Assembly (NCBI GenBank): GCA_012519255.1
Contig: JAAYQQ010000006.1
Span: forward strand, 1-36,347
Origin: Methanobacteriota archaeon
GTDB taxonomy: Archaea; Thermoplasmatota; Thermoplasmata; Methanomassiliicoccales; Methanomassiliicoccaceae
DNA length: 36,347 nt
Direction of reading: 5' to 3'
Below are positions 514 through 30,800 of the stretch, in pieces. The notes under the pieces are model-generated. The model saw nothing but the letters and a program-made list of their open reading frames with translations, was not told where the DNA came from and ran no database searches. Position 1 is the stretch's first letter. Every line of letters starts with the position of its first letter. Position numbers and translations under genes: made by a program.

Positions 514-1305
514 ATGTTAGACATAAAGAGTGTAAACTACGACAGGGTTTTGCGCCGCTATGATATACAAATGGAGGCGAAGGAAACCCCCGAAGAGCTA
601 GCTGCCAAGATGGTTCCAAAGGACCCGGTACTTAAAAAGGTAGCAGAGGACGTCGTTTTCATGCGCTACAAAAATGTGCAGGACGATGTTGCCGCTGCTT
701 TCCAGAACTATAGTCCTGAGGAAGTGATCGAGCAAGGCCTGATCAAGGGCATGGATGTGGTAGGTGAACTTTACGGAAGAGGCATTTACTACCTTCCCCA
801 CGTGATGGTGGCCGCCGATGCCATGGACCGAGGGGTAAAACTCTGCGAGTCCAAGATGACGGGGGCACGTGAAATGAGGGGTAAGGTCGTGATGCACGTC
901 GCCGAGGGCGATCCACACGATATAGGCAAGAATATTGCCGCTGTCCTTCTGAAGTCCAACGGCTACAATGTCATCGACATGGGCAGAGATGTCGCTATTG
1001 AGGATGTTGTAAAGACCGTGGAGAGCGAGACCCCAGAACTGGTCACTGGAACCGCATTGATGACTACTACCATGTCTGCGTTCCCCAAGATCGCGGACAT
1101 GCTCCAGGAGAAGGGAATTGACATCCCCTTCATCTGTGCTGGCGGTGCGGTGAACAGGGCGTATGTAGAATCATACCCGATGGGCATCTATGCCAACAAG
1201 GCTATTCAGGGGCCGGCCATTGCGGGCAAGGCCGTTGAAGGCTGGAACTGGAGGAAGCTGAGAGAGGACTGGGACGAGATCATCGGAGGCCCTGGAGCTA
1301 AATAA
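514..1305 (+). CDS. mtaC: Methanol corrinoid protein MtaC
   Basis: This 263-residue protein is the corrinoid carrier that receives the methyl group of methanol from MtaB and passes it to the coenzyme M methyltransferase MtaA. A helical cap domain (about residues 30-115) precedes a Rossmann-like B12-binding domain. The cobalt-ligand motif reads EGDPHDIGKN at 131-140, with His135 as the predicted lower ligand; the usual form is DxHxxG. A downstream GTALMTTT stretch and a GGA motif (the SxL and GG elements of B12 folds) are also present. GAGGTG at 503-508 is a fitting ribosome site. mtaB follows after 13 nt with its own strong ribosome site, the standard mtaCB operon. Other one-carbon corrinoid proteins are similar, but the MtaB partner makes methanol the best substrate call. 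Confidence 0.93.
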   Translation: MLDIKSVNYDRVLRRYDIQMEAKETPEELAAKMVPKDPVLKKVAEDVVFMRYKNVQDDVAAAFQNYSPEEVIEQGLIKGMDVVGELYGRGIYYLPHVMVAADAMDRGVKLCESKMTGAREMRGKVVMHVAEGDPHDIGKNIAAVLLKSNGYNVIDMGRDVAIEDVVKTVESETPELVTGTALMTTTMSAFPKIADMLQEKGIDIPFICAGGAVNRAYVESYPMGIYANKAIQGPAIAGKAVEGWNWRKLREDWDEIIGGPGAK

Positions 1306-1318
1306 GGAGGTGGAAAAA

Positions 1319-2722
1319 ATGGCAATAAAGAGATACACCAAAATGGAGTACGGCTCTCCTGATGAGATGGTCTTTGGCGAAGCCAGATATCCGGTCTCCT
1401 ATGGCCTTGGCCAGACGGTCGGTGCTGGCATAGTCGTGCCCGAGATTAACTTTGCTCCCAGGCCTGGGGCCGAGAAGAGCCCCGAGACCCTGAGGCGTGA
1501 GTACGTCGACTACATCACCAAGGATGTCCTTGACAGGGCCATCACCCTTGGATTCCCTGCGGTCCAGCTTGAGAATGAGCACATTTTCCAGATGGTCAAC
1601 GACCCTGAGCGCTTCGAGAAGCCCGTCGTCGCTGGTCAGAAGGAACTGATGCAAAAATACCATGATGAGTATGGCATTGCCCTATCCATCAGGCACACCA
1701 TAGCTGACCCACGACTTGCCGAAGAAGGTTTGAGGCCAGGCATGGATAAGAAGCACAGCTACCCCGAGAAGACCATTGAGGCCTTTGAGGTCGCTGCAGC
1801 GAATGGAGCCGATCTACTGTCCATCGAGACCATGGGCGGTAAGGAGGTTGCTGACTATGCCATTCTCAGACAGGACATAAGGGGATGGCTGTTTGGTATT
1901 GGCTATCTAGGCAGTCTGGACATGGAGTGGATATGGCCTCAGATAGTTGAAATCGCCAAGAAGAACAAGATTCGTGCCGGTGGCGATACCAACTGTGCTG
2001 GTGCCAATACATCCATGTTCATGGCCGGTGGCTACCTGGACAGAGATGTCCCCAGGACCTTCGCCGCCGTGACCAGGGCCATCGCTTCGGCGAGGACTCT
2101 GATTGCCTGGGAGGCTGGCGCCACTGGACCAGACAAGGACTGTGGCTACGAGGGCCCCATCCTGAAATCTATCGCCGGTAAGCCCACTGCCCAGGAAGGA
2201 AAGAACTGCCAGTGTGCCCACGCTGATCTGATGGGCAACCTGATTGCACAGGTCTGCGACCTGTGGTCCAACGAATCAGTAGAATATCACCCCGAGTTCG
2301 GTGGTTCCTCTGTCCAGTGCTGGCTTGGATCCATTGGCTACGAGGCTGCCCTGATGAACACTGCGAAGCAACTTAAGCAGGACAAGTTGCTCCGTGATCT
2401 GTACATGGCAACCGACCGGTACAGGAGTCCGGAAGGCTTCATCCTGGCTTACGACAACGCATACAAGATCGGGCAGGCCATCGTTGAGAATGGGAACGAT
2501 ATCTATCTGAGGGCCAAGGCGGCTGGCATGACCGCGGCAAGGCTGATCGAGGAAGAGAATGAGGCCGGTAGGCTGAGGCTGTCAAAGCACGAGCAGGATA
2601 TGCTTCGCAAGATAATTACCGACCTGAGCGCTCTCCCCGACGAGCAGTCCAAGTTCGTGGACCAGTGCCTCAAGGACTACAAGGATATCCCAATGTTCAA
2701 CCCGAAGAACTACGGCCTATAA
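1319..2722 (+). CDS. mtaB: Methanol:corrinoid methyltransferase MtaB
   Basis: This zinc enzyme activates methanol and methylates the Co(I) corrinoid of MtaC. The frame is open from a GTG at 1310, but GGAGGTG at 1306-1312 covers that codon, so the ATG at 1319 is the likely start (467 residues). Counted from that ATG, Glu170, Cys226 and Cys275 lie exactly six residues beyond the zinc ligands known in Methanosarcina barkeri MtaB (Glu164, Cys220, Cys269). They occur in SIETMGGKE, GGDTNCAGA and DKDCGYEGP. Length fits the family. The gene has no in-frame amber codon, as expected for MtaB, which unlike methylamine methyltransferases lacks pyrrolysine. It is followed by a T-rich termination region. 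Confidence 0.96.
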   Translation: MAIKRYTKMEYGSPDEMVFGEARYPVSYGLGQTVGAGIVVPEINFAPRPGAEKSPETLRREYVDYITKDVLDRAITLGFPAVQLENEHIFQMVNDPERFEKPVVAGQKELMQKYHDEYGIALSIRHTIADPRLAEEGLRPGMDKKHSYPEKTIEAFEVAAANGADLLSIETMGGKEVADYAILRQDIRGWLFGIGYLGSLDMEWIWPQIVEIAKKNKIRAGGDTNCAGANTSMFMAGGYLDRDVPRTFAAVTRAIASARTLIAWEAGATGPDKDCGYEGPILKSIAGKPTAQEGKNCQCAHADLMGNLIAQVCDLWSNESVEYHPEFGGSSVQCWLGSIGYEAALMNTAKQLKQDKLLRDLYMATDRYRSPEGFILAYDNAYKIGQAIVENGNDIYLRAKAAGMTAARLIEEENEAGRLRLSKHEQDMLRKIITDLSALPDEQSKFVDQCLKDYKDIPMFNPKNYGL

Positions 2723-3069: not shown

Positions 3070-4704
3070 TCAACTTCCCACCAGCCCCTTCTCAAGCTCT
3101 CGGAACTTGAAGCACTTCTTTGGACAGGCCCTTTCACATCTCATACAGGCAGTTCCGTTGCAAAGGTCAGAGGCGATCGATATTTCGAAACCAGAGGTGC
3201 CGCCCTGATGGACCTGTATGGCGTCCTCTGGACATTCCTTGACGCATCTTTCACATCCAGTGCATCCCTCAAAGCTCCCTTTGATATACAGCCCAATGTT
3301 GCGAAGCACCTTCAGGCCTTTATACCCTAGATCAGGTATGTCCCTCATCACCGTTCGGGTCACTTTGGCATTCTTGGTGGTGGTTGGCAGAGGCTGGATA
3401 TCAGATACCCGTAGCATCATGTTGTACATCTCGATTGGCATACCCTCCGTCCAATGCGCCAATTCCTGAATGAAGACCTTCTTAAAGGTCTCGTCGGAGG
3501 CGAACATGATGTGGTTTGCCCGTATGGATTTGGCAAGGGTCTGAAGCTCGTCCAGCAGTTCGGTGTCCCGGACCAGATCGGTGGCCATGGCTAGAGAGGT
3601 GTTGCCGAACTGATAGATCTGGCTGCAGGATGGAGGCAATAAGCCCACTCGCTGAGCCTTTAGGGCGTCCACGTATGTACCGGATGCGCCGCTCATATAC
3701 ATGATATCCAGTTCTTCGAATTTTATTCCGGCGTGTTCTAGTAGGGTGAAATGCCCCGCCCTCATGGCTCCGAATGCCTTGGCCGCCTCTACGATGTCAT
3801 TCTCTTCCAGCACGATGCCGTCCTGAAGATGGATACGATTGTCCAGGGTGGTGACATGTGGCATCTTGATGAGGCCATATTTTAGCCCTTCAGCGATGGC
3901 GGCGATGACGCCGGTGCCGGTGACCCCGACTGCCCGTCCGTGCATGGCTCCCTGCTCCATGACAACGCCGGTGTTGGGATCGACAGCATCTCCCTCTTTG
4001 GCCAGGATATCATCATCCAGGACAGTGCATCTCCAATCCAGTTCGACGTTGACATCACTGATCGCCCCCGGGGAGGCAAGCATGCCAGCCTTGATATGTT
4101 GTCCTTCGATGGCCGGGCCAGCTGCAGCCGATCCGGTAATTATCTCATCTCCCACCTTGAGGGCCATCTCCGCATTGGTCCCGTAGTCGGTCACCAGGAC
4201 GTCTTCCTTACGGTCCATCAATTTTGTCTTATACATCATGGCCAGAGCATCTGCTCCGATCTCATGTTTGATAGCTGGAGGGACATATATCTGGCATTTA
4301 TCCGGAAGATCCAGCCCCAGATCGACGGCGTTCAATATGGTTGCATCCCGTTTCTGCAACTCCACTCCTCGGGCCTTCAATGCATGCTCGCCTACAAAGG
4401 CAAGATCGCGAGTCTCGATGTTCTGAAACATGGACAACTGGATTGGATTGCCACAGATGGCCACCCTCTCCACCTTGGACAGGTCGATGTCCAGTAGATG
4501 CATGAGCCTGTTTGCCGTGTCGATGAGCAGTCGGTGGGCCAGGTCCTGCTGGACTTCGATGCAGAAGGTCAGGTGATCCATCACGTTGGCCCCAGGCACT
4601 GGATGCCTGACGGTTATGGCTGTGGATATGATCTGGTTATTACTCAGGTCCACAGCATGTTCCCGCATACCACTTGTCCCTACGTCAATGGAGATTCCGT
4701 ACAT
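3070..4704 (-). CDS. ramA: RamA-type corrinoid protein reductive activase
   Basis: This 544-residue iron-sulfur ATPase matches the family (RamA of M. barkeri is about 540 residues) that reduces inactive Co(II) corrinoid proteins to active Co(I) at the cost of ATP. The N-terminus (GISIDVGTSGMR) and the internal VTDYGTNAEMAL block are typical of the ASKHA-like activase core (DUF4445). The C-terminus carries two [4Fe-4S] motifs: Cys481-Cys484-Cys487-Cys491 (CTGCERCVKECP) and Cys515-Cys520-Cys523-Cys527 (CNGTACMRCERACP). It is the last gene of a minus-strand operon behind a G3E GTPase and a small His-tailed protein, 9 nt after the latter. It faces mtaCB, so activation of MtaC is the natural role. 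Methylamine corrinoid proteins encoded elsewhere could also be clients. Confidence 0.93.
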   Translation of the reverse strand: MYGISIDVGTSGMREHAVDLSNNQIISTAITVRHPVPGANVMDHLTFCIEVQQDLAHRLLIDTANRLMHLLDIDLSKVERVAICGNPIQLSMFQNIETRDLAFVGEHALKARGVELQKRDATILNAVDLGLDLPDKCQIYVPPAIKHEIGADALAMMYKTKLMDRKEDVLVTDYGTNAEMALKVGDEIITGSAAAGPAIEGQHIKAGMLASPGAISDVNVELDWRCTVLDDDILAKEGDAVDPNTGVVMEQGAMHGRAVGVTGTGVIAAIAEGLKYGLIKMPHVTTLDNRIHLQDGIVLEENDIVEAAKAFGAMRAGHFTLLEHAGIKFEELDIMYMSGASGTYVDALKAQRVGLLPPSCSQIYQFGNTSLAMATDLVRDTELLDELQTLAKSIRANHIMFASDETFKKVFIQELAHWTEGMPIEMYNMMLRVSDIQPLPTTTKNAKVTRTVMRDIPDLGYKGLKVLRNIGLYIKGSFEGCTGCERCVKECPEDAIQVHQGGTSGFEISIASDLCNGTACMRCERACPKKCFKFRELEKGLVGS

Positions 4705-4713
4705 CTTTTCCCC

Positions 4714-5121
4714 TCAATGTTCGTGCTTGTGCTCTAGGACATCTATTTTCAGCTTATGTTGAAGTGATCCCAGACTCCCTTCCATCAGCTGTTCCACCTC
4801 CTCATCGGTGAGGCCAATCACGGCGGCCATATACCTGATCTCACCGCTCTCGATGAGTTCGCCGGGCAGATCATTCTCTGTCTCCGGGCCCAGGTCTAGA
4901 TCCACAAGGTTGGCCTTGAGCGAACCGCCAGGAACGGTGAGGAAGACCTTGATGTGACCGATGAGGGCCCTTCCTGTCTGGTCCACCGCCTCCCCCATGG
5001 AACGCAGCATTCTCACGACCAGGGTGGCAAGTTCCTCGCGCCCCATTCCTTTGGGGGATTGAAACCTCAACCTAAGTCCGAATGAACTGGCTCCGGCCAT
5101 CTCTTTAGAATTTTCACTCAT
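4714..5121 (-). CDS. Small His-tailed protein between G3E GTPase and RamA
   Basis: I do not recognise the family with certainty. It has 135 residues if started at the ATG at 5121, chosen because GGAGG at 5128-5132 is 6 nt away; an in-frame ATG at 5127 abuts that site and is less likely. It overlaps the GTPase stop by 8 nt, so translation is probably coupled. The middle (GHIKVFLTVPGGSLKANLVDLD) resembles the strand-rich C-terminal domain that many CobW/P47K GTPases carry and that the neighbouring GTPase lacks. The C-terminus ends EHKHEH, a probable metal-binding tail. I infer a separately encoded accessory half of the GTPase, possibly acting in metal or corrinoid delivery to the methyltransferase system. 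No transmembrane segment is seen. Confidence 0.75.
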   Translation of the reverse strand: MSENSKEMAGASSFGLRLRFQSPKGMGREELATLVVRMLRSMGEAVDQTGRALIGHIKVFLTVPGGSLKANLVDLDLGPETENDLPGELIESGEIRYMAAVIGLTDEEVEQLMEGSLGSLQHKLKIDVLEHKHEH

Positions 5122-5713
5122 GAGCATCCTCCAGCAACTCTACGAGTTCCTCGACCCCCCTGCCCTCCCGAGCGGATACCGGTACTATGTATGAGGATGG
5201 ACTGATTTCTCGGACTGTTTCCTTGATCTTTCCTACAATCTCTGGTGAGACTATGTCTACTTTATTGATGGCCACGATATCTGAGCCTATTATCTGCCTG
5301 CTTAGAAATGGCCCTGCTTCTTCGAATAGCTTGGGCGCCCGGAATGCGTCGATGAGGCAGATGGCAATAGTGCGTTCCTCCCCTACCATGGACGTTCGAA
5401 TAATCTGATTGATCTTGGATGCCAAGGCAATTCCGGTTGGCTCAATAATTATCACGTCTGGCTTAAATTCCTCGGTGACGATGCGGAGGGTACTCTGGAG
5501 AGTTCCTGAGAGGGAGCAACAGATGCAGCCCTCTGATATCTCCACGCTTCGCAGGCCGCGCGACTCGATGACTGCTCCATCTACGCCCACCTCGCCTACC
5601 TCGTTCACGATAATGGCGACCCTCTTCCCCGCATCTCCCAGAGCGGTGCCGAGTCGAATAAGTAGTGTGGTCTTGCCACTACCTAGGAACCCGGCCAGTT
5701 GGCAAATTAACAT
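5114..5713 (-). CDS. G3E (CobW/P47K-type) GTPase, minimal form
   Basis: This 199-residue protein is a metal-chaperone-type GTPase. Walker A is GFLGSGKTT (8-16), the hallmark Cys cluster GCICC is at 62-66, EPTG is at 91-94, and the guanine-specificity motif NKVD is at 150-153. COG0523 proteins usually add a C-terminal domain of about 100 residues; here the chain ends right after the GTPase core (VSAREGRGVEEL). The next gene encodes a possible detached equivalent. Context (RamA downstream, MtaCB across) suggests help in loading zinc, cobalt or corrinoid, or in activating RamA, but this is inference. A TATA-like box at 5736-5745 lies about 27 nt before the ATG, so the transcript is probably leaderless. 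Confidence 0.88.
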   Translation of the reverse strand: MLICQLAGFLGSGKTTLLIRLGTALGDAGKRVAIIVNEVGEVGVDGAVIESRGLRSVEISEGCICCSLSGTLQSTLRIVTEEFKPDVIIIEPTGIALASKINQIIRTSMVGEERTIAICLIDAFRAPKLFEEAGPFLSRQIIGSDIVAINKVDIVSPEIVGKIKETVREISPSSYIVPVSAREGRGVEELVELLEDAHE

Positions 5714-5795: not shown

Positions 5796-6599
5796 TTAAC
5801 GCACATTAACTTTCTCTAGCAATGTATGGATATAATTCTCTATCTGAACGGTCATCAGATCTTCCGCTGGAATGACCCTAACGCCCGAGGCGTCTTCGAT
5901 AAAGTCGGCTTGTTTTTCTACACCATCATGGATTATTTTCATCCCGAAGTGAGTCAGGATCGCTGCTTCTGGATGGACCTCTGACACCAGCGTGGCGGCA
6001 TCTTCTGTGGACATATGCATGGGCACTCTGGATCCCAGGGGGCGTGTGAGATTAATGATCAGCACACGTGAGCCCCGGTGAGCCTGGATAAGTTCATCAT
6101 GGAGTCCCGTGTCGCTCACGTATGAAATGATGCCATTTGTAGTATGGAAGCGGAATCCCACTCCAGCAGGGTCGCCGTGTCTGGTGGGGGTGACATCAAT
6201 TCTCATCCCTGCAACATCGATCACTTCCCCATTACTTACCTGAATCACCTCTCGGGCAATAGCTTGGTGGTATGAAGACACCGCGGGAGTGAATCCATTC
6301 TCCCCCTTCAGTACTGACGTGGATCCCACCACTATGCCGGTCCGCTTGAAACCACCTCGGCACATGCCTTCAATGATCATCTCTGCATCGGCATAATGAT
6401 CAGGATGACAGTGTGATATGATCACCCCATCGGTTTGGGCGGGATCAAGGGCTAGATGGCACATATTAGCCAGTGCTGAGGGTCCGGGATCTATGTGAAG
6501 GCGGACATGGTCTTGCAGATAAATGCCCCCAGTAGAGCGGACTTGATATATGGTTGCGAATCGACCTCCCCCTGTTCCCAGGAATGTCAGTTTAGTCAT
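5796..6599 (-). CDS. MBL-fold metallo-hydrolase (RNase Z-like)
   Basis: This 267-residue protein has the metallo-beta-lactamase fold. The metal motif HCHPDH lies at 63-68 (HxHxDH), after the N-terminal FLGTGGGR turn. Later metal ligands are probably the His in TPTRHGDPAG, the Asp in YVSDTG, and the His in LTHFGMK. It belongs to the broad group that includes RNase Z and cyclic phosphodiesterases. The exosite that defines true tRNase Z is not obvious, so I do not call RNase Z. It is divergent from the deaminase gene with 77 nt between starts. Substrate unknown. Confidence 0.85.
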   Translation of the reverse strand: MTKLTFLGTGGGRFATIYQVRSTGGIYLQDHVRLHIDPGPSALANMCHLALDPAQTDGVIISHCHPDHYADAEMIIEGMCRGGFKRTGIVVGSTSVLKGENGFTPAVSSYHQAIAREVIQVSNGEVIDVAGMRIDVTPTRHGDPAGVGFRFHTTNGIISYVSDTGLHDELIQAHRGSRVLIINLTRPLGSRVPMHMSTEDAATLVSEVHPEAAILTHFGMKIIHDGVEKQADFIEDASGVRVIPAEDLMTVQIENYIHTLLEKVNVR

Positions 6600-6676
6600 T
6601 CATCTGAGTAAATGGCGTAGCTAGTAGTCTATCTTTCCCTTCAATAAGGAAAATTAATTACCGGAGGGAGATATGG

Positions 6677-7969
6677 ATGAGGTACATGCGCACACTCATC
6701 AAGGACGCCTATATTGTCACCCAGGACCCTTCTCGAGAGATCATCCAGGGAGATATCCTGGTTGAGGATGGTCTGATACTCAAGGTTGGAAAGGTCTATG
6801 ACTCCGCCGACCGTGAGATCGATGCCTCTGGCGACATTGTCATTCCGGGCCTCATCAATACTCACTGCCATGTTTCCATGGCTATTCTCAAAGGAATAGT
6901 CGACGATCTTCCATTTGATAGGTTCCTGGAACGGGTCTTCCAGGTGGATGAGAGGCGTACCGAGAAAGACATCCTAGCCGGAGCCCGGCAAGGCTGTGTG
7001 GAGATGCTGCGCAGCGGTACCACTACCTTCGTAGATCTATACTATGCTCAAGATATCATTGCCCGAGCGGTGGAGGAGATGGGTATCCGGGGCATTCTGG
7101 GGTGGGCAGTGCTGGATCCCGAGTTCACCACTCAGTCAGGAACCCCTATGGATAACTGCAAGCGCTTCCATCAGAGCCACAGGGGTAGTTCCAGGGTCGT
7201 ACCCGCGGTTGGTCTGCAAGGCGTCTACGTATGCTCAACCGAGACATTCCTGGATGCCAGGGAATATGCCCTTGCTAATGATCTATTACTTACATTTCAC
7301 CTCTCCGAGACGAGAAAGGAGGTGTCGGACTGCAAGAGGAAGGAGGGGAAGCGGCCAGCCGACTATCTAGATGGCATAGGCTTTCTGAATGACCATTGTC
7401 TGGCGGCCCACTCCGCCTGGCTGACCATGAATGAGGTACGCCAGCTTGCGGATGCCGGGACCAAGGTATCTTCCTGCCCGGTATCTAATATGAAACTTGC
7501 CACGGGAGGGGTAGCACCCATACCGGAGATGCTGCAAAACGACGTTACTGTATCTATAGGAACGGATGGATCTACCACCAACAATAGCCTGGATATGTTC
7601 GGGGAGATGAAAACCCTCGCCCTTCTGCAGAAGTCCAGCCGTTGGGATCCGGCTGTGTTGCCAGCCCAGAAGGTATTGGACCTTGCCACTATAGATGCCG
7701 CTCATGCGGTTCGTATGGGGGATAGTATCGGTTCTATAGAAGTAGGTAAGCGGGCTGATATGGTAATTCTAGATGGCGCGGCGGCAAATCTCAGACCACT
7801 GCGCCCCGATAATATCGTATCCAATCTAGTGTACTCTTCTTGTGGACTGAATGTAAAGACAGTACTATGCGATGGCGTAGTTGTGATGGAAGATCGCCAG
7901 CTCGTGTCGGTGGATGAAGAGGAGGTCCTGAACACTGCTGAAGAGGCCGCCCGCGAGCTTCTAGGTTGA
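6677..7969 (+). CDS. MTA/SAH/5'-deoxyadenosine deaminase
   Basis: This 430-residue amidohydrolase matches the MtaD/DadD family that deaminates S-adenosylhomocysteine, methylthioadenosine or 5'-deoxyadenosine. In methanogens this route recycles the by-products of SAM methylation and radical-SAM enzymes. Metal and catalytic residues are visible: His63 and His65 (NTHCHVSM), His208 with Glu211 (FHLSE), His245 (AAHSAWL) and Asp297 (GTDGS). The start at 6677 is 8 nt after GGAGGG (6663-6668); an ATG at 6686 is an alternative. Which nucleoside is preferred cannot be read from sequence. A guanine or cytosine deaminase role is less likely given the MtaD-type motifs. Confidence 0.9.
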   Translation: MRYMRTLIKDAYIVTQDPSREIIQGDILVEDGLILKVGKVYDSADREIDASGDIVIPGLINTHCHVSMAILKGIVDDLPFDRFLERVFQVDERRTEKDILAGARQGCVEMLRSGTTTFVDLYYAQDIIARAVEEMGIRGILGWAVLDPEFTTQSGTPMDNCKRFHQSHRGSSRVVPAVGLQGVYVCSTETFLDAREYALANDLLLTFHLSETRKEVSDCKRKEGKRPADYLDGIGFLNDHCLAAHSAWLTMNEVRQLADAGTKVSSCPVSNMKLATGGVAPIPEMLQNDVTVSIGTDGSTTNNSLDMFGEMKTLALLQKSSRWDPAVLPAQKVLDLATIDAAHAVRMGDSIGSIEVGKRADMVILDGAAANLRPLRPDNIVSNLVYSSCGLNVKTVLCDGVVVMEDRQLVSVDEEEVLNTAEEAARELLG

Positions 7970-8202
7970 GTCCTTCGAAGATCTCCCGCACCAGCCGAAT
8001 ATGTGGCAATATCATTTCTGATCTCATCCAGGCAGTAACATGTTCTGGCACTGGATAAAAGCGCGAAGATTCAGATCATTGGACGCATTTGCGACATATC
8101 CATAGATCATTCTCTGGGCCAGGCAGTTCAGTCTCAAATCGATGTAAGTATCTAACTCATTTCCAAGGCCCAAGCTCGTCGAGATGAAAAGAGAAAATGA
8201 GA
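7970..8202. other. Gap between deaminase gene and tRNA-Tyr
   Basis: No complete gene is seen. On the minus strand, a frame open from within the tRNA gene down to a stop at 8024-8026 reads like protein (for example GYVANASNDLNLRAF) but has no start codon. It may be chance or a fragment. Confidence 0.3.
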
Positions 8203-8315
8203 TGGTCCCGCCTCCCGGATTTGAACCGGGGGCCTGCTGATATCGGCGGCTGTGAACCGGTAGAACCGGAAACCCACTACAGTCAGCCGCTCTAGCCAGA
8301 CTGAGCTAAGGCGGG
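8203..8315 (-). tRNA. tRNA-Tyr(GTA) with intron
   Basis: On the minus strand the acceptor stem CCCGCCT (8309-8315) pairs with AGGCGGG (8207-8213). The discriminator is A and CCA is encoded (8203-8205). The first pair is C1-G72, the identity element of archaeal and eukaryotic tRNA-Tyr. Anticodon GTA is at 8278-8280 and the T arm (CCCGGTTCAAATCCGGG) is perfect. The mature tRNA is 78 nt after removal of a 35-nt intron between positions 37 and 38. A TATA-like element (minus strand TCTAAATACA, near 8340-8349) lies at the expected distance. Confidence 0.96.
8242..8276 (-). other. Intron in tRNA-Tyr
   Basis: The anticodon stem GCTGA/TCAGC only forms if about 35 nt are removed after G37. The intron contains a CCGGT/ACCGG hairpin, fitting an archaeal bulge-helix-bulge substrate of the splicing endonuclease. 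The exact ends may shift by one or two bases. Confidence 0.85.
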
Positions 8316-8430
8316 GCGTCACTCCTAATTGCGGATACTGTATTTAGACCTTGCCTATTGGGTGCAAGAGCTGGCTGCCTCTTGTGTTATGGACATGAGT
8401 CAAATCCTAACATAATAATTCCTCTGCTAA

Positions 8431-8442
8431 TTATTATATATA
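8431..8442 (+). promoter_or_regulatory. TATA box of the ribbon-helix-helix gene
   Basis: TTATTATATATAC is a strong archaeal TATA element. It predicts a transcription start near 8462, which rules out the upstream ATG at 8452 as translation start. Confidence 0.65.
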
Positions 8443-8468
8443 CATAGATTCATGACTTGTCCGACAAA

Positions 8469-8487
8469 AGAGGTCGGACCGACCTCT
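8469..8487 (+). promoter_or_regulatory. Perfect palindrome, likely operator
   Basis: AGAGGTCGG-A-CCGACCTCT is a perfect 9-bp inverted repeat around one base, with a further GTCCGAC half at 8459-8465. It sits a few bases after the predicted transcription start and before the start codon of a ribbon-helix-helix DNA-binding protein. That position fits autorepression by roadblock. Confidence 0.65.
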
Positions 8488-8508
8488 CATGTCCACTATG
8501 GTGCGAGG

Positions 8509-8748
8509 ATGGAAGAGCCAGAACTTGAGAAAGTGACCATACGCCTTCCTGTGCGATACATACGCGCATTGGACTTCCTAGTGAAAGTGGACGATTTTCC
8601 ATCCCGTTCGGAAGCGATCCGTTCGGCGATAAGGGACTTCATCTACGATCGAGTAGACGTGGTCATGGATAAGGTCAAGAGGATGGAGGAGGCTGAAAAG
8701 ACCCTCGCTGCCATGGAGATCTTCCAAGCCGAATACTTGAAAAAGTAA
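8509..8748 (+). CDS. Ribbon-helix-helix (CopG-type) regulator
   Basis: This 79-residue protein carries an N-terminal ribbon-helix-helix domain. The strand EKVTIRLPVRYIRAL is followed by a helix-turn-helix pair ending SRSEAIRSAIRDFI, the classic dimeric CopG/Arc/NikR-N signature. The rest is a charged helix (about 45-79) that may extend the dimer. The frame is open from an ATG at 8452, but the TATA box at 8431-8442 places transcription start after that codon, so I start at 8509. A perfect palindrome lies in the leader, suggesting autoregulation. No NikR-like metal domain is present. The regulon is unknown. An oligo-T tract follows the gene. Confidence 0.88.
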   Translation: MEEPELEKVTIRLPVRYIRALDFLVKVDDFPSRSEAIRSAIRDFIYDRVDVVMDKVKRMEEAEKTLAAMEIFQAEYLKK

Positions 8749-8814
8749 GCTTGAGGGCGCAGGGCTGCAAGAATGGGATGGGATGCACTTCAAGGCTCAC
8801 TTAGCCCCCCCCAT

Positions 8815-8829
8815 CTTTTTTATTTTTTA
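8815..8829 (+). terminator. Oligo-T terminator of the regulator gene
   Basis: TTTTTTATTTTTTAA follows a C-run 67 nt after the stop codon, a typical archaeal terminator. Confidence 0.65.
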
Positions 8830-8866
8830 ATTAGAAATGTGGTAAGAGGTTTGATCCGAGGCACGC

Positions 8867-9625
8867 TCAGCCGATGTAGCCGAGGTCCTCTCTCTTGGGC
8901 TCCACTGGGTTCTCGATCTCTTTCAGTTTGGAGGTGATGAGATCGATCTGTTCAGCCTTGGACTCAAGCTCGGAGAAGTCTATCTCCACATTGAGGATAG
9001 ATGCAAGTATCCGCAGGACGGCCTCGGCACCTTTGGGATCAACAAAATATCCAGAAGTCTCGCCCATTAGGCATACTGCATTTTGACCAGCTATCTTGCC
9101 CAGGCCTAGCAGGAGCCCACTTGCTCCGACGATGCCGGAGCCAGGCTCACCCTTAGAAAAGACGACCCCCTTGGCCGTCATCTCTTCCACAAGCTCTTTG
9201 GAGGTCGCAGCCCCGAGCACTCTCGGGCTCTCTACCATCTTACCTACGCCGTAGCCTCCTAGCGTGAACATTAGAGAAACATTGAACTTCTTGGCGATCT
9301 CAAGCACACTGCTGGAGAGCTCATATTGTCCTTCGGGTGTTAAGCCCTGGTAATCCCCGACTATAATAATGAGGTCGGGATGTTTTCCATCGGCCTTGGA
9401 ATAATAGAGCTCATTGTTAACAAGCTTAACAATCCCATCATCATCTAACATTACTTGAGGGGGAAAGTGGGCTGAATATATCTCTGCGAATTTCTTGGCC
9501 TTGAGCTGGTCGAGGAGGTGCTCTGCCGCCAGTTTGCCTACATTACCCACGCCGGGAAGCCCCTCAATAAGGATGGGCTTATTCAGGTCCGGTTCTTCGG
9601 AATAGATGATGGTAATTTTATCCAT
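8867..9625 (-). CDS. PAC2 family protein (proteasome assembly chaperone-like)
   Basis: This 252-residue protein matches the archaeal PAC2 (COG2047-type) family, related to eukaryotic proteasome assembly chaperone 2. Family landmarks include the N-terminal LIEGLPGVGNVGKLAAEHL block, IIIVGDYQ, TLGGYGVGK and the GASGLLLGLG loop near residue 170. The frame is open from a GTG at 9634, but AGGAG at 9634-9638 is a ribosome site 8 nt before the ATG at 9625. The start overlaps the end of nop10 by 8 nt. The gene is last in the L44e-S27e-aIF2alpha-Nop10-PAC2 operon, an arrangement common in Euryarchaeota. The molecular role in archaea is not firmly established. Confidence 0.9.
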   Translation of the reverse strand: MDKITIIYSEEPDLNKPILIEGLPGVGNVGKLAAEHLLDQLKAKKFAEIYSAHFPPQVMLDDDGIVKLVNNELYYSKADGKHPDLIIIVGDYQGLTPEGQYELSSSVLEIAKKFNVSLMFTLGGYGVGKMVESPRVLGAATSKELVEEMTAKGVVFSKGEPGSGIVGASGLLLGLGKIAGQNAVCLMGETSGYFVDPKGAEAVLRILASILNVEIDFSELESKAEQIDLITSKLKEIENPVEPKREDLGYIG

Positions 9626-9791
9626 GATTTCCACTCCTCTCCTTTCTCAGCCTTCGCCTATATACCCCATACCTGTCTTCGGGAGAGTATCTGGGGGGTA
9701 TGGGGACATCTGTTCTGCACTCACAATGGCTACACTTATCTAGTAGAGTGTATTCAATACATTGGGGACATTTTCTAAGAGAAGTCCGCAT
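9618..9791 (-). CDS. nop10: H/ACA ribonucleoprotein Nop10
   Basis: This 57-residue protein is the small zinc-ribbon subunit of the archaeal H/ACA particle that guides RNA pseudouridylation. The N-terminus (MRTSLRKCPQC) and CSHC at 20-23 give the C4 zinc site. The C-terminal PIPPRYSPEDRYGVYRR block is the signature that contacts Cbf5. It lies between aIF2alpha and PAC2, its usual place. GGAGA at about 9801-9806 precedes the ATG by about 9 nt, and the 3' end overlaps PAC2 by 8 nt. The gene is short and easily missed by length cut-offs. Confidence 0.95.
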   Translation of the reverse strand: MRTSLRKCPQCIEYTLLDKCSHCECRTDVPIPPRYSPEDRYGVYRRRLRKERSGNHG

Positions 9792-20534: not shown

Positions 20535-21628
20535 ATGGAAAAACAGAAAGCTTACATATTGGCCGTGGTGGCGATCGTACTTATCGCCACAGTGGGTGCC
20601 GCCGTCATCCTGAACGACAACGGCAACGATGCGACTGGAACGGGGAGTGAGGTCACCGATGCGTTGGGGAGGACCGTAAACATTCCGGAAGAGATCGACT
20701 CAATCTTTTGCGTCGGAGCGTGCTCCCTCAGACTCGTGTCGTACTTTGACGCGGTAGACAAGGTGAACACGTTGGAGGCCGACGGCACCTTCAATACCCG
20801 CGAAGACCAGACATATTACCTTATCAATAAGGATAAGTTCTCCTCATTGCCCCGGACGGGGACCGACGCGGAGAGTATTGTTAAACTGAAACCAAGTATC
20901 ATCATCACGTCCACTGCGAATGACGCCGCGACAGCGAACGACCTGCAGTCCAAGACGGGGATCCCTGTCTACGCGATCAACGCGAACCTCGAGTTCGGGG
21001 AGAAGTTCTACAAGCAAATATCCTCGCTAGGGGCGTTGTTCGGAGAGGAGAAGAGGGCAGCGGAACTCAACAAGGGCATAGCCGACCTGATAGGGGACAT
21101 AACCTCCGAGGCGCTCGTCGACAGCCCCGTGACCGCATACGCCAGCGGTATGTTCTATTACGGGGCGCTTCCTTGCTAAAGGCATCCGGGAACTACTTGC
21201 CGTTCGATTACTCCAACCTCACTAATGCCATGGGGCCAGCCGATAACGGTCAACCGTACATGATTGAACTGGAAACGCTTATCAAGGCCAACCCGGACTA
21301 TTTCTTCATCGACAGCATCGGCCTGAGCGACTGCATCGCGTCCATTAATGGGTATATATTAGATGGCACCGGCCTGGAAGAGGTGTCCGCGATATCCCAT
21401 GACCGTATCTATTCCACGATGGTCTACAAGTGCTACGGCACGAACTGGGAGAACCAACTGATCAACACATACTTCGTGGCGTCCAAGGTCAACGGTGAAT
21501 CATACACCTGGATCTTCGAGGAGAAGGCCAACGAGATCCTCCATCTATTCCACCCACACGCCACGATAACCTATTCGGACATTGTCGACGGTCAGACTGG
21601 CAGCGGATGCGCCAAGGTGAGCCGGTAA
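20535..21628 (+). pseudogene. ABC importer substrate-binding protein, frameshifted
   Basis: The gene encodes a periplasmic-binding-type lipid- or membrane-anchored receptor of the FepB/BtuF class for iron chelates, haem or corrinoids. It has an N-terminal membrane helix (about residues 6-25), then VTDALGRTVNIPEEIDSI and VKLKPSIIITS, both typical. The first frame stops at 21177-21179 after GMFYYGALPC. The second half continues one frame away from about 21173 (LLKASGNYLPFD...) to the stop at 21626-21628. One missing base near 21165-21175 explains the break; restoring it gives about 364 residues. Both halves are otherwise intact, so it is a recent mutation, a sequencing error, or programmed slippage. 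No slippery run is visible. Confidence 0.85.
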
Positions 21629-27755: not shown

Positions 27756-30700
27756 TTAGTCGCAGTGGCCCGGGCCTATGATGCCATTATTGTAGTCATC
27801 GAAGGTCTTCGCCCAGTTCGTGACCTGAGTCTGTTCACTCTTGGATAGCCCTCCCCAATCTCCCGCATCATGCTCGGCCAGGAAAGCGTCCACGGTATCG
27901 ATCAGTTCATCGACCGCAAGATCGCATGCGCCGTTGAGGATGTTCAACTTCGCAGCCAGCATCTGGGCGTAGAGCTGGTTGAACTTGTTCGCACCGCCGG
28001 CGTTGGCCAGTATGCTGCCTGCCTGGGCGGCAGTTGTCACGGCCACGCTCTTAGCGCCATTTGGCGTTCCTAGCCAAATGGTCCCGCCCGCTGCCTGGAT
28101 CAATGGAGAGATCTTGTCATCCTGAGGCCCAGGCCCGTCATGGTTCTTCCAGTACCCGATGGTGTAAGTGCATCCGCCACACTCGCACTCTGGTGTGTTG
28201 ATGACCACCGAGGCCTCATCCTCATGGGCATCCTTACTATCGTCCTCGACCAGCCTTGCGGTGTTGTTCAGATAGTAGGTCCCGCCACACTCCGCGTCCT
28301 CGTTGGTTACGGTGACGTCGCCCTCTATGATCACAACGCCCTGGGCATTGAGGTCGTTCTCATCAAGATGCCATGTACCTGGCTGGAAAAGATCCACATC
28401 GAATCCAGGAGGAATATCATCAAAGACATCGTTCAGGGTGGCAGTCTCATCGACCTCCTCTACCTGAGCGGTGGCGATGTTGAATTCCCCGGTGGCCTTG
28501 ACGCCCCATCTCTCGCCAGGGTGGCCATGGTAATTGGTCACCGTGGCGGAAGCAGTGTTCCTGAAGGCATACAGGCTCAAGTCGCTGGGCATATTTTCCT
28601 CACCAAGTGCGTCCAGGATGTCCTGGGTGATGTCCATGTTGTAACGGTAGACAAATGTCTCCCCTCCAGCAAGCATATCCTTCTGCGCAGTGAGATCCTG
28701 TGCCTGGAGCTCGATCCACTCTCCCCCGATGTTGATATATGCGGTGTCAAAGACCTGTAGATCTTCGGTGGCGAGCGGACCGCTATTGGTGACCGACACG
28801 GTGCCCCACAACTCGACTGTCACATCCTCCGATTCGATCGAACGAGTGGCGGTAAGGGTATACTTCAGGTACCCTGTTTCGCCCCCATCGAGTGTTAGAG
28901 CGGTCTGATTCACTCCCTTCGCAAGGCTCCAGTCATATCTGATGGTCTTATTCCACCCATAGTTGACAGTCCTGCTTATGGATAGGGTGATGCCCCTGTC
29001 ACACTCCGGCGTTTCTATGACCACCGAAGCTTTGTCCTTACGGATCTCGCCGGTATCATCCTCGACCAGTCGGGCGGTGTCGTTCACGTAATAGATCCTT
29101 CCGCACTCTGCGTCCTCGTTGGTAATGTTCTTGCAGAACCTGATGGTCTCAGGCCCTTCAAGGTACCACGGTCCCGCTATGATATCCATGTCGAAGCCGC
29201 GGGGGAAGGTCTCCAGGTCGGTCAGGGTGGCGGTCTCATCGATATACTCTACCTCTGGCTCGGGCAACGCGACCTCGATCTCATCCTCAATGAAGTAGAG
29301 GCCGTTCTGGTCCCTGAAATTGGTGATGCCCACATAGGCGCGGTTAACCATGCTCAGGGTTTGTTGGTCGGCAGTGTCGTCGTTTGGCCCGATCAAAATG
29401 CCCAGGAGGAATTCGGTGACATCGACGCTGTACCCATAGTCATGGCGCTCTCCAGAACCCAGGACGGGCTTTTCCTCGGTGCTGATTTCGAAGTCGAGGC
29501 TGTATTCAATACCATTGTACTCGACCACGAACACATCGGCGATGGTCAATCCCTCGGTGGGGCAACAGTTGGTATTGCGCACCCTAACGTAGCCTTCCAG
29601 CACGATCTTATCCACTATGTCAACGACCTTTCGGTCGGCATCTATGGTGTAGCAGATCCTTGCAGTCTGGCCTTTATCCAGGATGATATCTGCCGTCTGG
29701 ACGGCTATGGAATCAGGCTCCTGCCCATTGCCAAGCACTTCAAAGCTCTTCTCTACTGTCCAGTTATACTCGATTTTCTTCTCCCAGATAAGCTCGGCGC
29801 TCTTCTCCACCGAGATGGTGGTCTGACACGGGCATGGCCCGGTGACGAGGTTGACGTAAGCGCAATCTTCGCGGACCTCGCAACAGTCAAGCTCGGTCAA
29901 CGTTGCCTTGTTCCAGAGACAGCGTTCCTGCTCGCATCCAGCGCATAGGTTGGCGGCATCCACGCTGATGAGTATATCATCGGACCCATGGAGGATCCAG
30001 GGCCCGCTGTCTGTTGCCGTGCACTGGAAGTTCTCAGGGCACCACATCTCGTCGACGATCAAGGCGGTCTCATCTATCTCGATCAGACAGGGCTCTGCTG
30101 GCATGGTGAATGGGTCGTATGCAGGGACAGCATGCGCCACGCCATCAAAACCCTCATAGTTGGTTATGCTCACACAGGCCAGATTGCAGTACTCTGAGGC
30201 GGCGACAGCATCAAATGCATATTCGAAGAAATAGGCGTGCTCTTCTCCCGGCGCGAGTACGGGACGGGATGAAGTATCCACTTCAAATACGGCAACGTCG
30301 ACATAACTACAAACATTCTCATCATAGATCTGTATGTGATCCACGATGGCGAGGTTTTCAGTGGGGACGCTGCCAACATTCTTCACGCAGACGTATCCGC
30401 GCACGCCCATATGTTCAATATCTGTCGCCACGCAGCGTTCGGCCTTGATAAGGTAGTCAATAGTAACGCTCTGGCCCTTGGGAACCATCGCGTAGCCGAG
30501 ACGTCCAGCGTCGCTGACCGAGACCGCTTCGCTCTCAAGCACATTTTTTTCTATACTCCAATCATAGATCACCTCTCTTTCCCAGAATCCAGTTGATTCC
30601 TTGCTAGTAAGCAAGGTGGTGGTCCCATCCACATCTGGTGTGGTATCTCTTTTCGTTGATCCTGCTCGTTCCTCATGATTGTCTGGAGAGGGTGCTCCCT

Positions 30701-30800
30701 CCAAACCAACGACCGGGACATCTACTAGATATGCCACGGTCACGCCGAGGATCATTACTAGAGCTATCGCTAGGCTCAACGCTTTAACTCCTCTTCGCAT
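27756..30800 (-). CDS. Large secreted protein, triplicated module plus GYWKNH domain
   Basis: This 1014-residue protein has a signal/anchor helix (about 7-30) and three tandem modules of roughly 265 residues (about 67-330, 335-600, 609-872). Each begins with a related strand (FWEREVIYDWSIEK, IWEKKIEYNWTVEK, GWNKTIRYDWSLAK), has a VTN/ITN-type Ig-like core, an IDETA/VDETA motif, and closes with NxTARLVEDD or a related block. The C-terminus carries a TIGYWKNH motif (880-887), a domain known from other surface proteins with beta-rich repeats. Module 1 and parts of 2 are Cys-rich. The chain is very acidic with many Asn-X-Thr/Ser sites. It is probably an extracellular surface or adhesion protein; no C-terminal anchor is seen. 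GGTGATC precedes the ATG. Confidence 0.85.
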   Translation of the reverse strand: MRRGVKALSLAIALVMILGVTVAYLVDVPVVGLEGAPSPDNHEERAGSTKRDTTPDVDGTTTLLTSKESTGFWEREVIYDWSIEKNVLESEAVSVSDAGRLGYAMVPKGQSVTIDYLIKAERCVATDIEHMGVRGYVCVKNVGSVPTENLAIVDHIQIYDENVCSYVDVAVFEVDTSSRPVLAPGEEHAYFFEYAFDAVAASEYCNLACVSITNYEGFDGVAHAVPAYDPFTMPAEPCLIEIDETALIVDEMWCPENFQCTATDSGPWILHGSDDILISVDAANLCAGCEQERCLWNKATLTELDCCEVREDCAYVNLVTGPCPCQTTISVEKSAELIWEKKIEYNWTVEKSFEVLGNGQEPDSIAVQTADIILDKGQTARICYTIDADRKVVDIVDKIVLEGYVRVRNTNCCPTEGLTIADVFVVEYNGIEYSLDFEISTEEKPVLGSGERHDYGYSVDVTEFLLGILIGPNDDTADQQTLSMVNRAYVGITNFRDQNGLYFIEDEIEVALPEPEVEYIDETATLTDLETFPRGFDMDIIAGPWYLEGPETIRFCKNITNEDAECGRIYYVNDTARLVEDDTGEIRKDKASVVIETPECDRGITLSISRTVNYGWNKTIRYDWSLAKGVNQTALTLDGGETGYLKYTLTATRSIESEDVTVELWGTVSVTNSGPLATEDLQVFDTAYINIGGEWIELQAQDLTAQKDMLAGGETFVYRYNMDITQDILDALGEENMPSDLSLYAFRNTASATVTNYHGHPGERWGVKATGEFNIATAQVEEVDETATLNDVFDDIPPGFDVDLFQPGTWHLDENDLNAQGVVIIEGDVTVTNEDAECGGTYYLNNTARLVEDDSKDAHEDEASVVINTPECECGGCTYTIGYWKNHDGPGPQDDKISPLIQAAGGTIWLGTPNGAKSVAVTTAAQAGSILANAGGANKFNQLYAQMLAAKLNILNGACDLAVDELIDTVDAFLAEHDAGDWGGLSKSEQTQVTNWAKTFDDYNNGIIGPGHCD

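Follow-up and report, generated by a model that had tools for sequence, protein, structure and literature searches.

The locus and its genes

The window, a stretch of 36,347 nucleotides on contig JAAYQQ010000006.1, is one contig of an archaeal genome of the order Methanomassiliicoccales that comprises 1.75 Mb in 149 contigs. Its closest relatives with a name are Methanomassiliicoccus and other Methanomassiliicoccales metagenome-assembled genomes. Its minus strand carries a short G3E GTPase, a small protein without family assignment and RamA, the reductive activase of corrinoid proteins. The order of transcription is metallo-beta-lactamase-fold hydrolase, G3E GTPase, small protein and RamA, while mtaC and mtaB lie on the plus strand and converge on ramA. 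The GTPase and the small protein are very probably two subunits of one COG0523-like metallochaperone, whose C-terminal half is encoded by a gene of its own. The features on which this interpretation rests are the following.

5114-5713, minus strand: G3E/COG0523-type GTPase of 199 amino acids without a C-terminal domain (PF02492; NF041053)
5669-5692, minus strand: G1/P-loop GFLGSGKT, seen in the sequence and invariant in the GTPase alignments except for one Ser
5516-5527, minus strand: CICC of the COG0523 metal-binding motif GCxCC, seen in the sequence
5255-5266, minus strand: G4 motif NKVD, seen in the sequence
5114-5121, minus strand: overlap of 8 nucleotides between the GTPase stop and the start of the small protein, ATGAGTGA, seen in the sequence
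4714-5121, minus strand: small protein of 135 amino acids with the GHxK domain (homologues, fused homologues, AlphaFold2 model)
4948-4959, minus strand: GHIK motif (G-H-x-K), whose G, H and K are invariant over 36 and a further 25 alignment rows
4717-4734, minus strand: EHKHEH tail, a candidate metal-binding tail seen in the sequence; His-rich stretches occur in about half of the homologues
3070-4704, minus strand: RamA, corrinoid-protein reductive activase of 544 amino acids (TIGR04270; PF14574 and Fer4 matches)

The original prediction, made from the DNA letters, had described a 199-residue GTPase with the G1-G4 motifs and GCICC, a 135-residue protein overlapping it by 8 nucleotides and ending in EHKHEH, and RamA behind them. 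Each of these elements was recovered. The motifs GFLGSGKT, GCICC, EPTG and NKVD are all present, the overlap is exact with the start ATG at 5121, and the tail is found at the C-terminal end of the small protein. The assignment of RamA is secure (TIGR04270, 745.9 bits against a cut-off of 500), and two 4Fe-4S motifs are found at its C-terminus.

A GTPase that ends after its G domain

Residues 5-176 of the GTPase match PF02492 (E 4.5e-36), and the chain ends shortly past the match. The claim that it stops without a C-terminal domain agrees with the Pfam scan, in which PF07683 (CobW_C) was absent from the 199-residue protein and present in the controls L093 and L096. GCICC occupies residues 62-66, and its Gly and three Cys are invariant across an alignment of 31 GTPases. 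With its P-loop, EPTG, NKVD and CxCC, the protein has the motifs of a COG0523/CobW-type G3E GTPase and is predicted to be one.

Comparison with other short G3E proteins places it further. The window GTPase matches the 195-residue model NF041053 over its full length, but at 110.9 bits it stays below the cut-off of 180. NF041053 describes a CobW-related selenoprotein, an equally short G3E GTPase which has selenocysteine where the window protein has Cys. HypB and UreG are G3E GTPases that lack CobW_C and work with separate partner proteins, as is proposed here. They differ in their partners (HypA and UreE/F/H) and in their clients; Foldseek aligns them over the GTPase domain only, and the window protein reaches 42.1 bits with TIGR00073 (HypB) against a cut-off of 121.2. 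MeaB/MMAA, the G3E GTPase of a B12 enzyme, has a C-terminal extension of its own and no GCxCC. The score of the window GTPase with PF03308 (MeaB) is 22.7 bits, below the cut-off of 23.1.

The small protein and its predicted fold

The first in-frame ATG of the small protein, at 5127, would give 137 amino acids. The start was set at the second Met, at 5121, because the orthologues begin there (MSEN, MSED or MNED). Searches in Pfam, NCBIfam, PHROG and the PDB sequences gave no match. Nevertheless, when the 147 genomes of the order were searched with the single sequence, 126 proved to have the protein. Each of the 40 loci inspected around these matches has a G3E GTPase gene immediately upstream of it. 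Among all loci gathered, the two genes overlap by exactly 4 nucleotides in 43 of 63 pairs; such an overlap is the usual sign of translational coupling. The frequency of the protein, its constant position and these overlaps show that the reading frame is not a chance one. In the Thermoplasmatota sample, the domain occurs in 55 of 57 members of the order and in none of 333 others.

G57, H58, K60 and G68 are invariant over 36 homologues, and the first three of them are still invariant over 25 more distant ones. Since sequence profiles fail to establish homology with CobW_C, the name GHxK domain is used here instead. The window protein has what defines this group, namely the motif, a beta/alpha core and a position behind a G3E GTPase, either on a separate gene or in the same chain. 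Many members are also rich in histidine. Of 68 separate small proteins, 36 have at least four His in some stretch of 15 residues, compared to 13% of the other open reading frames of about this length from these loci. At least six in such a stretch are found in 23 of 68, compared to 0.9%. Among the partner GTPases, the corresponding counts are 1 of 76 and 0 of 76.

Some homologues bear long His/Cys repeat tails of up to about 130 residues (L070:7644-8393, L076:7943-8740 and L186:6467-7129), and a relative in L079 likewise has a long His/Cys tail. The tails of L070, L076 and L186 are possible metal stores.

An AlphaFold2 model of the small protein was built from 25 alignment rows (mean predicted local distance difference test, pLDDT, 90.9; predicted template modelling score, pTM, 0.82). 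Its topology is beta-alpha-beta-beta-beta-beta-alpha-beta. In a Foldseek search of the PDB, the three entries of Escherichia coli YjiA, a COG0523 protein bearing CobW_C, appeared at ranks 2, 4 and 6 of 350,542 chains (E 3.5e-4, 1.2e-3 and 1.3e-3; probability 0.97-0.99). The match comes without an aligned range and is taken to be with the C-terminal domain of YjiA, because no other G3E protein is found among the 50 best rows. The prediction had stated that a clearly unrelated fold would defeat the idea of a split chaperone; given these ranks, the predicted fold does not appear unrelated, although the similarity scores are low.

YjiA (1NIJ, 4IXM) is the best G3E match in the PDB for both the isolated domain and a fused homologue from Nitrososphaeria (see the next section). 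The fused model (pLDDT 86.6) aligns to YjiA over 363 columns, while HypB and UreG align over only about 200-216. YjiA shares the GTPase domain with the window system. In contrast, it is a single chain, and its CobW_C domain has RxKG where the window family has GHxK.

Fused homologues and the GTPase tree

A scan of the genome collection with the GTPase alignment yielded 80 named loci. Several of them encode the GHxK domain as a C-terminal extension of the GTPase. One example is a protein of 349 amino acids from a metagenome-assembled genome (MAG) of Nitrososphaeria, whose domain matches at E 9e-25. The same arrangement occurs in a Candidatus Methanomethylicota MAG, in Methanohalobium (352 amino acids) and in a Victivallales MAG. 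Methanimicrococcus has two fused copies in tandem (363 and 391 amino acids, L085:6722-9146), an arrangement that suggests duplication and specialisation. Weaker fused matches come from a Clostridiales MAG and a deltaproteobacterial MAG. Acetobacterium, Oscillospiraceae, Actinomycetota and others have a separate neighbouring GHxK gene. Among the Methanosarcinaceae, 52 of 61 genomes contain the domain, nearly always in reading frames of 340-450 amino acids; the count for their phylum overall is 47 of 295 genomes.

A further class of fused proteins, of about 360-373 amino acids, is found within the order Methanomassiliicoccales (L170:6288-7391, L172:6223-7344, L173:6806-9708 and L176:6678-7751). 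Several of its members have GGCFC in the metal motif and not the full GCxCC.

A tree was built from 150 GTPase domains. The GTPases that bear CobW_C form one clade (support 100/99) with no GHxK member inside, and the GHxK GTPases fall outside it. The state changed between fused and split at least four times on this tree, and the fused archaeal proteins linked to mta genes group with the split type of the window (95/75). Two entries, L173_8635 and L057_6342, were mislabelled as split; one of them is a fused protein whose motif has diverged, and the other adjoins a true pair. The conclusion is unchanged. Most members of this branch have the GTPase and the GHxK domain either in one protein or on overlapping genes. 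That these two parts have been fused repeatedly, and in the same order, argues strongly that they act as one unit.

Genomic neighbourhoods

Three further genes complete the surroundings of the trio in the window.

5796-6599, minus strand: metallo-beta-lactamase-fold hydrolase, upstream and co-directional (PF12706)
514-1305, plus strand: MtaC-like corrinoid protein (B12-binding domains; NF040669 at 308 bits, below the cut-off of 450)
1310-2722, plus strand: MtaB, zinc methanol:corrinoid methyltransferase and candidate client (NF040651 at 755 bits, cut-off 720)

Aligned to 2i2x, MtaB keeps the Glu/Cys/Cys positions of the zinc site of M. barkeri MtaB, which we take to be the zinc ligands of that enzyme. 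As the original prediction had suggested, the conservation of the trio was surveyed. A trio not kept together in related genomes would have told against the split chaperone, but the three genes proved to be conserved side by side. Each of the 20 mta-type loci examined in the order has the GTPase first, the small protein next and then RamA. MtaB is in view in 17 of these loci, and the metallo-beta-lactamase-fold hydrolase stands upstream of the trio in 19. Outside the order, RamA is immediately beside the fused protein in eight loci of Methanosarcinaceae (L195, L199, L201, L203, L204, L205, L210 and L211). These loci have mta or other methyltransferase genes nearby, and all except L205 show mtaB/mtaC within the stretch that was retrieved. 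RamA is also nearby in the fused loci of Nitrososphaeria, Methanomethylicota and Methanohalobium. RamA is thus the most specific neighbour of the type of pair found in the window.

Positions 5796-9634 of the window hold the metallo-beta-lactamase hydrolase, an amidohydrolase, a NikR-like ribbon-helix-helix protein and a conserved protein of 255 amino acids. Most of the f1/f6 genomes in the order keep this arrangement of genes beside mta/RamA.

Other pairs have other neighbours. A second group adjoins MtaC-like corrinoid proteins and, in the four loci inspected, a gene for a URO-D-family methyltransferase as well. Bacterial pairs adjoin genes of the URO-D family, to which MtaA and MtbA belong, and nine such neighbours all retain the HxC of the zinc site. 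The paralogue group L058-L075 was also considered as pyrrolysine methylamine clusters, and this was rejected, as no such gene appeared in four loci with TAG read as pyrrolysine; these clusters have a URO-D-family methyltransferase next to a corrinoid protein. In a cluster of URO-D and corrinoid genes with a GTPase-GHxK pair (L064:9697-13736), two consecutive hydantoinase/oxoprolinase-like ASKHA proteins are encoded, which are possibly alternative corrinoid activases.

The association of such GTPases with methyltransferases is not new, since it was published in 2009 (Haas et al., PMC2770081). According to the excerpts of that paper, most archaeal COG0523 proteins form subfamily 13, which is co-localised with mtaA, mtaB, mtaC and ramM. 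Like the system described here, subfamily 13 combines a G3E GTPase bearing CxCC with neighbouring methanol methyltransferase and Ram genes, and the GTPase-GHxK family shows the same co-localisation with corrinoid methyltransferase genes. The fused proteins of Methanosarcinaceae are probably members of subfamily 13. The same excerpts report that MA4382 was detected in methanol-grown cells and that a zinc-repressor site is predicted ahead of MA4381. They do not describe the GHxK partner domain, the split form or a Methanomassiliicoccales genome. No report of the partner domain or of the split form was found in the open-licence literature, and a 2023 preprint on bacterial clusters of mlp (MtaA-like) genes makes no mention of a GTPase, G3E, COG0523 or a metallochaperone. 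The literature searched contained no later follow-up of the 2009 link for methylotrophic methanogens. The GHxK partner domain and the two-gene split therefore appear to be undescribed so far.

Two other parts of the window lie apart from this system. At 20535-21179 and 21173-21628 on the plus strand, two consecutive overlapping open reading frames resemble one broken periplasmic binding protein of the FecB/BtuF type, followed by genes for an ABC permease and an ATPase. A frameshift or an assembly error is suspected from the reading of the letters. At 27756-30800 on the minus strand, a protein of 1014 amino acids begins with a signal-like segment and contains several long repeats that resemble one another; to judge from its sequence, it is probably a surface protein.

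Weighing the proposed split chaperone against its alternatives

Several observations weigh against a split chaperone with a CobW_C-like half that is tied to the corrinoid pathway. Pfam CobW_C matched none of 25 members of the small-protein family. Hhalign comparison of the small protein with CobW_C gave P values of 0.003-0.03 and a probability of 2-10%, so homology by sequence is not established. The alignment is colinear and places K60 of the GHxK set near the K of RxKG, but it is too weak for a claim of homology. Between the small domain and YjiA, the template modelling (TM) scores reach only 0.36-0.39 on query length, with a root-mean-square deviation of 6.3 for the match at 0.39, and the fused model leaves the relative placement of its domains uncertain (pTM 0.60). 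The His tail is not universal; it is short in the window protein and absent from some orthologues. Within the order, proximity of the genes counts for little, because synteny is order-wide and extends to unrelated flanking genes. Several fused copies of Methanosarcinaceae have no RamA or mta gene within about 7 kb. Finally, a third group of pairs adjoins the zinc-ribbon DNA topoisomerase I gene topA, with no corrinoid gene. The genome of the window itself has such a second pair (L167:16232-17355, G000:C20), convergent with topA, whose small protein ends His/Cys-rich. The topA linkage recurs in L177 and L182, and probably in L087/L088, L181 and L183-L185.

The failed profile comparisons and the low TM-scores would suit a small protein that is an unrelated partner, such as a regulatory subunit or an adaptor for the client, fused to or co-transcribed with short GTPases and no counterpart of CobW_C. 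This is unlikely. The GHxK domain holds the same position after the GTPase, and His-rich linkers in some members are placed as in CobW_C proteins. Moreover, no G3E entry in the PDB matches the isolated domain better than YjiA, which also aligns across the two domains of the fused model. Even with an unrelated partner, the system would functionally still be a two-part G3E system. The original idea of a split metallochaperone thus stands in one part: the detached C-terminal half is well supported by fusions, predicted fold and conservation of the trio, while its identity as CobW_C by sequence is not. The GHxK domain sits in the position of CobW_C and is possibly a distant relative of it.

The topA-linked pairs show that the family is not restricted to the corrinoid methyltransferase pathway. 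Dedication to corrinoid methyltransferase activation, the other part of the original proposal, is not established, as paralogous pairs stand beside topA and elsewhere. The pair of the window nevertheless probably serves the corrinoid methyltransferase system.

Within this system, a role on the corrinoid side has to be considered. The pair could act as a MeaB-like GTPase chaperone of the MtaC corrinoid, either loading or guarding it, or it could assist reductive activation by RamA. The linkage to ramA is tighter than that to mtaB, which favours such a role. RamA belongs to the same operon in the 20 mta-type loci and is the immediate neighbour in the eight loci of Methanosarcinaceae. MeaB is likewise a G3E GTPase, and corrinoid-protein genes stand beside another large paralogue group. 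However, the window GTPase falls just short of the MeaB cut-off and scores far better as cobW, and it has GCxCC, the metal-binding motif of COG0523. For the bacterial pairs beside URO-D genes, the 9-16 kb fetched often contain neither a corrinoid gene nor RamA, and no corrinoid genes accompany the topA-linked paralogues. A corrinoid role is therefore considered improbable, about as much so as an unrelated partner.

The delivery or repair of iron-sulfur clusters, or of another metal (Ni, Co or Fe), for RamA or other pathway proteins is less probable again. The adjacent RamA has two 4Fe-4S motifs, a NikR-like regulator gene is nearby and syntenic, and the very long His/Cys tails of some relatives resemble nickel or zinc stores. 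Yet the NikR-like gene belongs to the order-wide synteny, and many pairs stand beside zinc methyltransferases without RamA. Furthermore, where other COG0523 proteins were tested, Zn or Co was the preferred metal (PMC7895991).

A split chaperone that supplies zinc to clients of the MtaB/MtaA type is the explanation favoured as a whole, with somewhat better than even confidence. The most general shared neighbour of the pairs is a zinc protein, be it MtaB, a URO-D-family methyltransferase or the zinc-ribbon topoisomerase. Zinc as the delivered metal, taken by itself, is only slightly favoured. It is preferred because of the cofactor of the clients, the topA-linked paralogues and the zinc-repressor link in the excerpts of PMC2770081.

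In the proposed mechanism, the GTPase subunit would take up a transition metal at GCICC under the control of the nucleotide. The small subunit would take the place of CobW_C, cap the GTPase, hold or buffer metal by its His tail and dock the client. GTP turnover would then release the metal into apo-MtaB or enzymes of the MtaA type. The chaperone pair would be made in the same expression unit as RamA, the reactivator of the MtaC corrinoid.

Implications

To our knowledge, nothing has been described on how MtaB, MtaA and the corrinoid protein of methylotrophic methanogens acquire their metals. The recognition of a protein without family assignment as the missing half of a chaperone makes this question of metal supply testable. 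Because Methanosarcinaceae carry the fused form, it can be approached in a genetically tractable host. The finding also puts a name to a large group of proteins on which annotation libraries are silent, namely short GTPases and hypothetical His-rich proteins of archaea and of acetogenic and gut bacteria. More tentatively, and with slightly less than even confidence, the GHxK domain may mark an undescribed and ancient branch of two-part G3E metallochaperones, repeatedly fused and split. In methylotrophic methanogens and anaerobic bacteria, this branch would mature the zinc methyltransferases, both MtaB and the MtaA/MtbA-like enzymes, and methyl-based methanogenesis would depend on it under metal scarcity.

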